The notes under the pieces: model-generated
Database searches by the model: none
Seen by the model: only the letters and a program-made list of their open reading frames with translations
Told to the model about the DNA's origin: nothing
In this document: positions 20,221 to 25,550 of the stretch, one piece after another
How positions within the stretch are numbered: position 1 is the first letter of the stretch
Layout of the letters: each line of letters begins with the position of its first letter
NCBI GenBank assembly: GCA_903909375.1
Contig: CAIVVM010000024.1
Span: forward strand, 1-64,000
DNA from: an uncultured Alphaproteobacteria bacterium
GTDB lineage: Bacteria > Pseudomonadota > Alphaproteobacteria > Caulobacterales > Caulobacteraceae
Direction: 5' to 3'
Length of the DNA stretch: 64,000 nucleotides
Translations under genes and position numbers: made by a program

Positions 20221-20688
20221 GTGGATAGCGTGAGACCCGCTTCCAGATCGGAATCGCCGCCGTTGGCCCTTTGGGCCATCGCCGCGCTGTGCCTGTCGCC
20301 GTTTGTGGCGGCTGCATTGATCTTCAGCTACGGCCCGCCAAAGCATGCCACGATGTCTCTGAATATCCTGATGACATGGTCCGCGGGCGGCATGTCGTTT
20401 CTGGCTGGCGTACGCTGGGGACTTGAAACCCGGGAACCGGATCCTCGCTGGCAGCGCCAGGGGTTTTCCGCCCTTGCGGCCTTGGCTGCGTGGGTCATTT
20501 TTCTGGCGCGCGGCCATGCCCCCGACACCTGGATCCTGGGCGGGTTCATCGCGGCCTACCTGATCCAGTGGCTGTTCGACCACCAGACGCCGGATACGCC
20601 GTCGCGCTATCCCATACTATCAACAGCCGTCACCGGCGTGGCCTGCGTTTCGTTGGCGCTGGCGCTGGAAAAGGCGCTGCACGCCTGA
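20221..20688 (+). CDS. DUF3429 family membrane protein
   Basis: A 155-residue protein with about five short membrane segments and the pattern MTWSAGGMSFLAGVRWGLE, typical of DUF3429. It starts at GTG 20221, six bases after the TIGR02186 gene, and is probably in the same operon. Function unknown. Confidence 0.7.
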   Translation: MDSVRPASRSESPPLALWAIAALCLSPFVAAALIFSYGPPKHATMSLNILMTWSAGGMSFLAGVRWGLETREPDPRWQRQGFSALAALAAWVIFLARGHAPDTWILGGFIAAYLIQWLFDHQTPDTPSRYPILSTAVTGVACVSLALALEKALHA

Positions 20689-21468: not shown

Positions 21469-21897
21469 CTATTCGCTGCGGTTCAGGATCGCGGCGGTGT
21501 CGACCAGTTCGGCCAGTAGCGACAGGGTGGCTTTGCCGGAGCAGTCGAAGGGATTCAGCTCCACCCTTTTGAAGTACTTCAGCAGAAGGGACGGATTGAT
21601 CCGGGAGATGGTCACCTGGCCCATCGTCCAGTTGCCGAACCGGCGCTCGCCGATTTCCTCATAGATCAGCAGCCGGACCTGCTCGTGGCGAGGATCCCGC
21701 ACGATGGTGTTGTAGAGGTCGCATACTTCATCCCGGCCGCCTTCCAGCACCTGGATGAAGAGGTCATCGGACACGCACAAAAGGCCTGTCACCCCTTGGT
21801 CGGGGTTATTCTTCCGCGACTGGGCCAGAATATCATCGCAGGACGACGCCACGAGGGCCTTCGACGGACGACTTGCATAGAGACAGCGCACAAGCAT
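21469..21897 (-). CDS. BLUF-domain blue-light photoreceptor
   Basis: A 142-residue stand-alone BLUF protein. The flavin-photocycle residues are in place: Tyr7 (VRCLYASR), Asn31 (NNPDQGVTGLL) and Gln49 (FIQVLEG), with the same spacings as Tyr21, Asn45 and Gln63 of AppA. BLUF domains bind FAD and switch hydrogen bonding on blue light. The roughly 45 residues after the core form the usual short helical cap and no output domain is attached, so it should signal by protein contact. It lies seven bases after folE and is very likely in its operon. Confidence 0.9.
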   Translation of the reverse strand: MLVRCLYASRPSKALVASSCDDILAQSRKNNPDQGVTGLLCVSDDLFIQVLEGGRDEVCDLYNTIVRDPRHEQVRLLIYEEIGERRFGNWTMGQVTISRINPSLLLKYFKRVELNPFDCSGKATLSLLAELVDTAAILNRSE

Positions 21898-21904
21898 CTG
21901 CGGC

Positions 21905-22618
21905 TCACTTCCTTTGTTGCAGGAGGGACAGGAACTCGCTTCTCAAGTGCGTGTCCTTGAGGAAGGAGCCTCTCATCACGCTGTTGATCATCTTGGTCTC
22001 GCTGTCCTTTACCCCACGCCAGTGCATACAGAAGTGGTCGGCCTCCATGACGATGGCGAGACCATCAGGCCGCACCTTGTCCATCAGCAGTTCGGCCATC
22101 TGGGTGATGGCTTCCTCCTGAATCTGGGGGCGCGACATCACCCAATCGGCCAGGCGCGAGTACTTTGAAAGACCGATCAGGTTGGAGTGCTCATTGGGCA
22201 TAAGACCGATCCAAAGGCGCCCCATGATTGGGCAGAAGTGGTGGCTGCAGGCGCTGCGCACCGTGATCGGACCCACAATCATCAACTCGTTGAGCGACTC
22301 TGCGTTGGGGAACTCCGTAACCGGCGGCGCTTCAGCGTAGCGGCCGCGAAACACCTCCGTGAGGTACATCTTGGCCACCCGGCGCGCGGTGTCCTGGGTG
22401 TTGTGGTCGCCCTCGGTGTCGATCACCAGGCTTTCCAGCACGCCCTGGAACTTGCCCGCCACCTCGGCAAGCAGGGCGTCCATTTCCCCGGGTTCGACGA
22501 AGGCGGCGATGTTGTCGTTGGCGTTGAACCGTTTGCGAGCGCGTTGCAGCCGCCCGCGGATCGTCACGGAAATCGGCTCCGGAGCCGTTGTATCGCTGGG
22601 CGGGGGCGGTTCGCTCAT
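21905..22618 (-). CDS. folE: GTP cyclohydrolase I
   Basis: A 237-residue type I GTP cyclohydrolase, which converts GTP to dihydroneopterin triphosphate. The zinc ligands are visible as Cys124 and His127 in SACSHHFCPIMG and Cys197 in HFCMHWRGV, and the family's N-terminal helices and DTARRVAKMY segment are present. About 35 extra residues precede the core. It is the first gene of a two-gene unit with the BLUF sensor, suggesting the pterin product is used in a light-linked function (for example a photolyase/cryptochrome antenna) rather than, or besides, folate. A palindrome sits about 90 bases upstream. Confidence 0.92.
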   Translation of the reverse strand: MSEPPPPSDTTAPEPISVTIRGRLQRARKRFNANDNIAAFVEPGEMDALLAEVAGKFQGVLESLVIDTEGDHNTQDTARRVAKMYLTEVFRGRYAEAPPVTEFPNAESLNELMIVGPITVRSACSHHFCPIMGRLWIGLMPNEHSNLIGLSKYSRLADWVMSRPQIQEEAITQMAELLMDKVRPDGLAIVMEADHFCMHWRGVKDSETKMINSVMRGSFLKDTHLRSEFLSLLQQRK

Positions 22619-22706
22619 GGGACCCTTCGACGCGCGCGACAGGAAGCGCCTGCCCGTACCGCATCGACCTACAGCCCGGTGAGCCGCGCGTCATGTGAAT
22701 CCGGGA

Positions 22707-22724
22707 TGACGTAACGAAACGTCA
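22707..22724. promoter_or_regulatory. Candidate operator upstream of folE-BLUF (TGACGT-N6-ACGTCA)
   Basis: A perfect 6-base inverted repeat with a 6-base spacer, in the 110-base gap between folE and the adenylate cyclase gene. Symmetry and position suit a dimeric regulator of folE; it could also be part of a terminator for the cyclase gene, though no T-run follows. Regulator unknown. Confidence 0.4.
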
Positions 22725-22728
22725 GCGC

Positions 22729-25404
22729 CTATTTCTCTGTCAGGTTCCACACGCCGTCCCAATCGCCGGGTGGCGGCGTGTCCCGGAGCAGGCGGCAACG
22801 ATCAACGTAGATGCTCGACGGGCCGTCGTCCGGATAGAGCTCCAGCGCCGCCAGGAAAGCCCGCTCCGCCATGTCCCAGTCGCGGGCGCGATAGGCGTTC
22901 AAGCCTTCTGCGTGAAGCATCAGCAGAGACGCCATTCCAGGTTCCTGGGCGCGGTAGCCGAGGGACTCATAAACCGCCACGGGTCGATCCTTCCCCCTCA
23001 CGCGGATAAGATCCAGCTCCCGCAGGGTCGCCGGGCTCTGTAGTTCGCGCACGGTGGTTTCGGACAACACGATCTTGGCGCCGTACTGCTTTGTCGCGCC
23101 CTCCAGCCGCGAGGCCAGGTTTACGTTGTCGCCGATCACCGTGTAGTCCAGTCGTTTCACCGACCCGATATTGCCGACCACGGTCGGGCCGGTGGAAAAC
23201 CCGATCCCTATGTCCAGCGCCTGTTGACCGGCCGCAACCCGACGCTCGTTAAGGGCGGCAAGTCTCCGCATCATGTCGTCAGCGGCGGCCAACGCCTGGT
23301 CCGCATCACGGGGGCCCACCAGCGGAGCCCCGAACAGCGCCATGATCCCGTCGCCCATATATTTGTCCAGGATGCCGCCGTGCTGGAAGATCACGTCGAC
23401 CATCTCGGTGAAGTACGCGTTCAGGAGCGAGACCGTTTCGCGCGGCCCCAGAGCCTCGGCGATGGAGGTGAAACTCCGGATGTCGGAGAACATCACCGTG
23501 ACCTTCTGTTCCTTGCCTCCAAGTTCCAGCTCGCCGGCCGAGAGCAGCTGATCGGCCACCTCCTTGGACATGTAGCGCGACATGGTGGAGCGGATACGCT
23601 TCTCCTCGGTGATGTCCTCGAGAACCAGCATCGAGCCGATCCGGTCCTCAGAGGCATCGATCAGGGGCATCGCCGTCAGATTGACAGTCGACACGCCGCC
23701 ATCCGGGCGCAGAAACTCCGCGTCGATCGCCAACGCCGTTTCACCGCTCGAGGTCTTGTCGAGGCTGTCGATGATCCAGGCATTGCCCTCGTCAAAAACG
23801 CGCGCCGCATCGCGCCCGATCAGTATGTCGCGCTTCAGGCCGAGCAGGGTTTCGGCAGCATCATTGGCCGTGACGATCTTCGCGTCGGCGTCCAGGGTGA
23901 CAATCCCGTTCGAGGTGCTCTTCAGGATGCTTTCGTTGTAGTTCTTGATGCTCAGCACATCGTCGAAAAGCTTGGCGTTCTCGAGGCTGACGGCGATCTG
24001 GGCGGCAAACGCCTTGAGGCGGGATTCGTCCTTGGTTGAGAAGTGGCCGCCGCGCTTGTTGAGCGCCTGGGCGACCCCGATCCGGGCTCCGGCCTTGTTG
24101 GTGATCGGTACGCAAAGGATGCTGCGGGTGGTGAAGCCCGACAACCGGTCTACCTCCGGGTTGAACCTCGGGTCCTCATAGGGATTGTCGATATTCTCGA
24201 GATGGCCGGTCGTGAACACCGCGCCGGCGATCCCCCGCCCGGTTGGCACCCGTATCTGCCGGGTCTCCATGCCGTCGGCATAGAGGGTGTAGAGTTCATC
24301 GGTCTTGTCATCATAGATGAACAGGGATGCCCGTTCGGCGCCAAGCAACTGAGTGGTGGCCGTCATGATACGGCCGATCAGCACCTCCAGCAGCAGCTCC
24401 CCGGCCAGGTCCTGCGTGACTTCCAGGATCTGCTGCTCCTCACGCAGCGACTCCAGCATCAGGTCAAAGCCGCGGTTGATGTCGGCGTACTCGTCTGTAC
24501 TCAGGACCTCGAGCTTGGCGTTGTCGAGGTCGCCGCTTTCGACCTTGCCCATGGCGTCGATCAGGCGCGCCGCTGATTGTGACACCTCACGCGCTGTCAG
24601 GACGGCCATCGATACGGAGCCGACCACACAGACCAGGACAATTCCGACGCTCCAGACATAGAGGGCGAGAATCTCGCCTTCTGGTACGACGAACCCGTGG
24701 CGCGTCAGCATCCGATCGAACTTGTAGAGGAATGAAACCACCGCGAAGACGAGGGGCAGCGAGCTCACTGCGATGGCGAGGAACAGCAGTTTTGTGCGCA
24801 ACGGAACCGAGGTCAGCTTGGCCAGTTCCGCTGGCGGCGTTGGTCCGCCGAGGCTCCGCGAAAGACGCTGCGCGATGGGCTGGATTTCGCGGCTGACGGC
24901 GAAATATTCGAAGATCGCATGCGCCGGCGTGGCGAAAACAAAGATCAGGGTCGCCAGCGACAGGACCTGCCACAGTACGATGTCTGCGCCAAAGAACAGG
25001 TTGATCGGGATGATCACCAGCAACAGCGACATCGTCGCCATCGGCCCGTGCAGGACGATCACCCGGACCGCGGAAAGCTGCGGAAGATTCAGGGCCCGCA
25101 CCAGGGCCGCGCCCAGTATCTCGGGACCGGGCCGTTCGCCTCGATCCAGAGCGCTCAGGACCGGAGCCAGGGGTTTCAGATGTCGACGAATGGCGATCAC
25201 GTCGATCGAGGTAAAGAACGCGACACCGAACGGCGCGGCCAGCCAGAACAGCAGCCACTGACGTCCGGTGAACTCAAGGCCCAGAAGCCCGAGTCCCATC
25301 GAAATCGTCACGGCTGTGAACGAGGCCAGATGATAGATGACGATCAGGCGCCAGAAGAGCGCCCGGCCTGAGTCCGGCATGGTCGAGGCGACCCCTTTGG
25401 TCAC
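22729..25404 (-). CDS. Membrane class III adenylate cyclase with HAMP, GAF and PAS domains
   Basis: About 891 residues from GTG 25404, which has GAGGTGGG at the right distance; the frame is open a little further upstream. Order of parts: about six membrane helices (to about residue 270), a HAMP-like linker, GAF (about 325-480), PAS (about 490-600), class III cyclase (about 618-820) and a short TPR-like tail. The catalytic domain has metal aspartates in MFSDIRSFT and DKYMGDGIMALFG, and the Lys (KYMGD) and Asp (LDYTVIGD) pair that selects ATP over GTP. It should make cAMP in response to a small-molecule or redox cue read by GAF/PAS. Confidence 0.88.
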   Translation of the reverse strand: MTKGVASTMPDSGRALFWRLIVIYHLASFTAVTISMGLGLLGLEFTGRQWLLFWLAAPFGVAFFTSIDVIAIRRHLKPLAPVLSALDRGERPGPEILGAALVRALNLPQLSAVRVIVLHGPMATMSLLLVIIPINLFFGADIVLWQVLSLATLIFVFATPAHAIFEYFAVSREIQPIAQRLSRSLGGPTPPAELAKLTSVPLRTKLLFLAIAVSSLPLVFAVVSFLYKFDRMLTRHGFVVPEGEILALYVWSVGIVLVCVVGSVSMAVLTAREVSQSAARLIDAMGKVESGDLDNAKLEVLSTDEYADINRGFDLMLESLREEQQILEVTQDLAGELLLEVLIGRIMTATTQLLGAERASLFIYDDKTDELYTLYADGMETRQIRVPTGRGIAGAVFTTGHLENIDNPYEDPRFNPEVDRLSGFTTRSILCVPITNKAGARIGVAQALNKRGGHFSTKDESRLKAFAAQIAVSLENAKLFDDVLSIKNYNESILKSTSNGIVTLDADAKIVTANDAAETLLGLKRDILIGRDAARVFDEGNAWIIDSLDKTSSGETALAIDAEFLRPDGGVSTVNLTAMPLIDASEDRIGSMLVLEDITEEKRIRSTMSRYMSKEVADQLLSAGELELGGKEQKVTVMFSDIRSFTSIAEALGPRETVSLLNAYFTEMVDVIFQHGGILDKYMGDGIMALFGAPLVGPRDADQALAAADDMMRRLAALNERRVAAGQQALDIGIGFSTGPTVVGNIGSVKRLDYTVIGDNVNLASRLEGATKQYGAKIVLSETTVRELQSPATLRELDLIRVRGKDRPVAVYESLGYRAQEPGMASLLMLHAEGLNAYRARDWDMAERAFLAALELYPDDGPSSIYVDRCRLLRDTPPPGDWDGVWNLTEK

Positions 25405-25550
25405 TGACCCACCTCGCAAGACGCCGCCCGGCCGTAGCGCACCAATAACCCCCAATACGTCGCCGGAGCGCAGTCTAGACCGCGATCTCTTGCAGCGCCA
25501 AACGGCGATCAAACGCTGGATCTGAAGCAGCGCCTGTCGCTGGCGCGATA

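Follow-up and report, generated by a model that had tools for sequence, protein, structure and literature searches.

A GTP cyclohydrolase I gene and a PixD-type BLUF photoreceptor gene kept as a pair in alpha- and betaproteobacteria: a candidate two-gene light module

Introduction

Human GTP cyclohydrolase I is a decamer of D5 symmetry, and two GFRP pentamers flank it on the fivefold axes (PMC7750480). Crystals of the cyanobacterial BLUF protein PixD contain two stacked pentameric rings, and the protein also forms dimers; on irradiation the rings dissociate and release the partner PixE (PMC5899715). In Escherichia coli the BLUF protein BluF has a dedicated partner in BluR, a MerR-type regulator (PMC9758184). 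In Pseudomonas putida, folE is induced by light along with photolyase, cryB and ufaM (PMC9758184, PMC8508746). In Pseudomonas mendocina, a short LOV protein has PmlR2 as its effector, the PmlR2 region holds a folM-folE-folX operon, and folE is up 1.6-3.3 fold in light (PMC9758184).

The locus described here pairs a folE-like gene with a BLUF gene. It resembles the animal system in the enzyme, and the proposed regulator is likewise a small protein with relatives that form fivefold rings; unlike GFRP, that regulator is a BLUF protein, its signal would be blue light, and the complex is a putative one. With PixD-PixE it shares a PixD-type BLUF, matched over nearly the full length in sequence and model, whereas the neighbouring gene is folE and not pixE, and the output would be metabolism instead of phototaxis. 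The Pseudomonas PplR/PmlR system (PMC9758184, PMC8508746) likewise joins a GTP cyclohydrolase I gene with a short flavin photoreceptor; its light regulon also holds photolyase, CryB and UfaM, its photoreceptor is a LOV and not a BLUF protein, and its control, as described in these sources, is transcriptional via LitR. As in BluF-BluR, a BLUF would act with a dedicated partner, but no MerR gene was found beside the pair studied here.

We propose, at a probability of roughly 0.48, that the two genes form a light module in which a dedicated FolE has the PixD-type BLUF as its partner protein, regulating its activity. Were this so, light would gate an early step in the folate metabolism of bacteria that are, judging by their names, largely non-phototrophic, and one group of short BLUF proteins would have a known partner. 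The module would also be a natural light switch for an enzyme and an unrelated, light-driven counterpart of GFRP, acting in some species on the cell's only GTP cyclohydrolase. No paper on a folE-BLUF pair was found in the open-access literature searched, most subscription journals and all preprints lying outside the search.

The gene pair in the window

The window is the whole stretch of DNA that was analysed, 64,000 nucleotides long. Its features at this locus are as follows.

21469..21897, minus strand: BLUF photoreceptor gene, 142 aa, short, PixD type, with C-terminal helices
21898..21904, minus strand: gap of 7 bp between the folE stop and the BLUF start
21905..22618, minus strand: folE-like gene, 237 aa, GTP cyclohydrolase I of a separate branch
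22707..22724, no strand: exact palindrome TGACGT-N6-ACGTCA, judged a chance inverted repeat
22729..25512, minus strand: HAMP-GAF-PAS-class III cyclase gene (Pfam), 110 bp upstream of folE

A preliminary description of this DNA had placed the first two genes in one operon. Both genes are real; they match PF01227 at 142 bits (curated cut-off 27) and PF04940 at 101 bits (Pfam), and because they lie on the same strand and 7 bp apart, a single transcript is likely.

The window FolE scores 145 bits against the NCBIfam folE equivalog, under its cut-off of 181.6. In the alignment it carries an N-terminal RFxANDNI motif and a loop P141-N-x-H144-S-N146. Residues C124, H126, H127, H195 and C197, which we take to be the zinc and catalytic residues of GTP cyclohydrolase I, are invariant in all 20 aligned FolE proteins; the conserved active-site residues are present. 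The AlphaFold model of the monomer is poor (pLDDT 44), below the quality needed for a fold search. A second, higher-scoring folE (234 bits) lies on contig C20 of the same genome, and the window FolE belongs to a branch of its own within GTP cyclohydrolase I and is not the housekeeping copy. Copies of this branch occur in 20 of 149 genomes of the family, window included, at 70-100% identity to the window FolE, and each of these carriers has at least one additional FolE match; the next best family FolE reaches at most 37% identity among the matches listed. The boundary of the branch is not sharp everywhere, since plasmid-borne FolE proteins are intermediate (58% identity to the window FolE in Roseibium, 37-42% in Neorhizobium and Microvirga).

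The BLUF gene is the only one in its genome. Among solved structures, the closest are two PixD proteins, Tll0078 and Slr1694, with almost the whole length matched. The AlphaFold model (pLDDT 85) was used in a fold search, and the top 24 PDB matches were all PixD chains, with TMq of 0.83-0.89 over the whole length including the C-terminal part. Y7, N31, Q49, W90 and M92, presumably the photochemical residues of BLUF proteins, are kept in 107 of 107 paired BLUF proteins. The paired BLUF is accordingly classed, by sequence and fold comparison, as PixD type with its light-sensing residues kept. Pfam yields the BLUF domain alone, with no match to the GFRP family in the window protein. Elsewhere in the family, genomes G135 and G139 have six and five BLUF matches, respectively. 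High-scoring BLUF proteins of two genomes without the window-type FolE (G016, G148) were set aside because they are just 38-39% identical to the window BLUF.

Conservation of the pair

The search for the pair in other genomes, which the preliminary description had suggested, found it conserved. BLUF lies directly downstream of folE in all 20 family carriers. A search of named species gave at least 573 FolE relatives, of which the best 80 were kept; in 79 of these the gene immediately 3' of folE, in the same orientation and with a gap value of 9-72 nt, is BLUF, a count that leans towards pairing because these loci are the most window-like. The 80th, L139, meets a contig edge 3 nt past folE. Seven of the 80 were dropped, their folE starts being identical to those of family loci. 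Class- and phylum-wide counts are fairer: across the class the branch occurs in 6 of 385 genomes and is paired in 6 of 6, and across the phylum it occurs in 22 of 398 genomes at 23 places, 14 paired and nine unpaired, six of the latter within two genera (window included in both counts). Overall, L139 left out, BLUF adjoins FolE in 109 of 118 branch members.

The closest of the best 80 named loci is a Phenylobacterium deserti metagenome-assembled genome (MAG). Cultured carriers include Phenylobacterium aquaticum, Sapientia aquatica, Uliginosibacterium aquaticum, Chitinimonas, Caldimonas, Aquabacterium, Sphaerotilus and Cupriavidus metallidurans CH34; some species titles of MAGs are doubtful, for example Bordetella parapertussis. 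In C. metallidurans CH34, a laboratory strain, the pair occupies 558041-559149 of NC_007974.2. Genome G830 has two branch FolE copies, L187 with BLUF and L203 without.

The pairing is far beyond chance, and folE-BLUF is a conserved two-gene unit in alpha- and betaproteobacteria. That the genes are kept together in many Proteobacteria suggests light control of the entry step of folate and pterin synthesis. The nine branch members of the phylum sample with no adjacent BLUF indicate that the enzyme does not need BLUF.

Gene neighbourhood

Neighbours were surveyed at 93 loci, with flanks of up to about 9 kb in the family and at most 4 kb in the named species. Genes beyond the pair are common mainly to close relatives and vary by lineage, so the pair itself is the unit. 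The cyclase gene upstream of the window folE was rejected as part of it: among 113 loci searched, a homologue stands beside the pair only in L072 (genome G144). A DUF3429 gene at 20221-20688 on the plus strand of the window has no relative in the other loci searched; a DUF3429 gene also occurs in the Burkholderia anthina cluster described below.

A light-regulated setting is suggested by relatives of the enzyme that lack BLUF. In Caballeronia such a relative stands in a MerR-folE-SDR-sigma factor cluster. On a plasmid of Burkholderia anthina the order is lipocalin, FAD oxidoreductase, DUF1365, CFA, chalcone isomerase, DUF2256 and folE, then sigma factor, DUF3429, SDR, FAD oxidoreductase and MerR, with no BLUF. 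These two clusters (L255 and L256, respectively) are both on plasmids, one of them predicted conjugative. In the phylum sample, G817 has most of the B. anthina-type genes together with MerR and photolyase, and G870 has four of them; among the nine unpaired loci, only these two have a regulon-like cluster. A HiPIP gene lies near four unpaired loci from a single genus, and the regulon queries gave no match near unpaired G701, G598 and G830:C42. By gene content, the clusters of some BLUF-less relatives resemble the Pseudomonas LitR light regulon, their CFA gene being read as UfaM-like, and this likeness would place the FolE branch in a light response in some lineages. The general claim of the preliminary description, that pterin synthesis is coupled to blue light, is well supported, though solely by comparison, through the conserved unit and the light-regulon-like clusters.

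The same clusters bear on how the coupling would work. FolE and BLUF could both belong to a regulon for light or photo-oxidative stress, under LitR or a sigma factor, and share an operon simply to be co-expressed, with no contact between them. The four BLUF-less clusters fit this explanation, as do the DCC1-like, SDR, fasciclin, HiPIP and FAD oxidoreductase genes found near the pair in 13, 12, 7, 6 and 6 of the 93 loci. The other cluster genes come and go, however, while BLUF stays with FolE at nearly every branch locus, and 13 of the 20 family loci, the window included, have none of the searched-for neighbour genes, HTH-length MerR matches aside. We regard co-expression with no contact as improbable.

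The best rival to direct regulation of FolE places the control at transcription: BLUF would act on the operon by way of a DNA-binding partner, MerR/LitR or other, with FolE merely the target gene. It ranks first because both E. coli BluF-BluR and the short LOV of P. mendocina with its LitR protein PmlR2 work in this way (PMC9758184). A full-length LitR-like MerR gene does stand beside the pair in 7 of the 93 loci, directly upstream in L113, L119, L120, L127, L130 and L144 and divergent in L115 (34% identity). The remaining 86 loci have no full-length neighbour of this kind; a search with the L120 MerR found no LitR-like MerR in the window's genome at E <= 1e-8. Across 37 paired genomes the match is full-length in 2, HTH-length in 7 and missing in 28. 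Nor was an obvious shared element found by a crude 6-mer word count of 118 upstream regions, in which the top words CATGAC (21/118) and CCATGA (19/118) are start-codon-like and CTGCTA follows with 15. This mode of control, which may instead use a partner of another family, is rated unlikely, though a better candidate than co-expression.

The upstream palindrome and photolyase

The preliminary description had further proposed a regulator bound at TGACGT-N6-ACGTCA, and antenna supply to photolyase as the process served. The palindrome is exactly where it was reported, ends 88 bp before the folE start, and is the sole perfect copy of the 18-mer in the genome; one-mismatch copies number eight, against one for a reversed-pattern control. 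All eight, however, lie inside open frames of 392-1370 nt (mechanical scan). The site is missing upstream of the pair in the nearest relative, G144 of the same genus (92% FolE identity), despite the same upstream cyclase gene, and among the 118 upstream regions, each of 160 bp, it occurs just in the window and, with two mismatches, in L199. A perfect 6+6 inverted repeat with a spacer of 0-10 is found in 405 of 1162 window tiles of 110 bp (35%) and, after Markov shuffling of the region, in 335 of 1000 sequences. The genome's photolyase locus has no copy at up to three mismatches. At chance-level frequency and not conserved, the palindrome was rejected as an operator and looks like a chance inverted repeat; a regulator acting there to tie the pair to photolyase is very improbable.

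Photolyase antenna supply as the role of the pair is itself weakly supported. Photolyase is within reach of the pair at 1 of the 93 loci, and in the window's genome the one PF00875 match sits on another contig, C56, outside the pair's cluster. Within the family, photolyase is found in 19 of 20 carriers (one a partial match) versus 105 of 129 non-carriers, a difference that is not significant (Fisher p = 0.20).

The content of GTP cyclohydrolases in other genomes bears on the same question. Of 25 further branch carriers tested, 19 have a single PF01227 gene, and 10 of these also lack PF02649, the other GTP cyclohydrolase family. Nine of the 10 are paired (G712, G839, G544, G863, G735, G729, G852, G873 and G497, the last a MAG of 95% completeness), and G598 is unpaired. 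Of the 9 genomes with an unpaired copy, 7 have PF02649 (G598 and G830 do not), as do three paired genomes (G758, G821, G750). Since no other GTP cyclohydrolase was found in the nine paired genomes, their paired FolE must supply general folate, unless there is a GTP cyclohydrolase type unknown to the PF01227 and PF02649 profiles; this makes photolyase antenna supply unlikely as its sole role in these genomes. The window-type FolE may be the main GTP cyclohydrolase in some genomes.

Proposed mechanism

In the proposed light module, BLUF chains, probably five or ten in a ring, would bind the FolE decamer along its fivefold axis. Blue light would alter the contact and thereby move GTP cyclohydrolase activity up or down, so that BLUF would act like animal GFRP, its signal being light and not phenylalanine or BH4. 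The module would likely serve to adjust folate and pterin synthesis to the light; possible uses are the replacement of photodamaged reduced folates and the supply of pterin cofactors under light stress. Light control, its direction, the direct contact and the physiological purpose are all inferred. In its most specific form, in which a ring of blue-light receptors clamps the decamer and light sets folate, queuosine and pterin synthesis post-translationally in many Proteobacteria, the proposal is tentative and somewhat doubtful.

The fivefold symmetry shared by PixD and GTP cyclohydrolase I is suggestive and no more. Direct docking gains from the finding that a LitR-like MerR does not appear to be a general partner of the pair. 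Against it, operon pairing alone can also be explained by common light induction; no FolE-BLUF fusion occurs among 109 pairs (an in-frame stop follows folE within 30 codons in 109 of 109), and unpaired branch members exist. The PixD partner described in PMC5899715, moreover, is PixE and not an enzyme, and PixD is also dimeric.

Phylogeny and the unpaired members

A tree was built from 119 branch FolE and 6 canonical FolE sequences, and the branch stands apart from the canonical ones. BLUF presence requires 5 changes on this tree versus a mean of 15.4 for shuffled labels. With L139 left out, the unpaired sequences fall in two places: L193 and L194 lie within a paired clade, and the second place holds four sequences of one small-genome genus and three single ones, with the paired L199 among them. 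Few changes, most likely losses, fit the distribution best; the reading of the tree is rough, given extremely long outgroup branches and an unsettled bootstrap. FolE and BLUF distances correlate at r = 0.78 over 107 of the 109 pairs, two under the length limits being left out, and the best of 1000 permutations gave 0.17; such a correlation is expected if both genes are co-inherited.

The unpaired sequences differ from the paired ones most at H144, in the loop noted above. It is present in 105 of 109 paired FolE and changed in 8 of 9 unpaired. Among the 132 columns with 90% or more conservation across the 109 paired rows it is the one most often changed in unpaired rows, the mean over columns being 0.67 of 9; nearby N142 and N146 are changed in 4 and 5 of the 9. 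Counted by lineage, H144 is changed in 4 of 5 unpaired lineages (Fisher p = 5e-5 with all paired rows as the comparison; corrected for 132 columns, about 0.007), in a post hoc test made after the data had been viewed and with unpaired rows that are long-branched. Five hand-picked long-branch paired control rows show no change (0/5). The paired rows lacking H144 are L147, L199, L115 and L157, of which L147 and L199 are long-branched and outside the control set. L203 is the sole unpaired row that keeps H144, and its genome, G830, is the one that also has a paired copy. Y85 and Q173 are likewise changed in 3 of 5 unpaired lineages. The H144 pattern is a hint that would fit a docking loop freed from constraint after BLUF loss.

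In the small-genome genus (L206-L209, genomes of 1.7-2.1 Mb), the unpaired FolE gene stands beside a conserved gene of 123 aa, and PF02649 is also present in the genomes.
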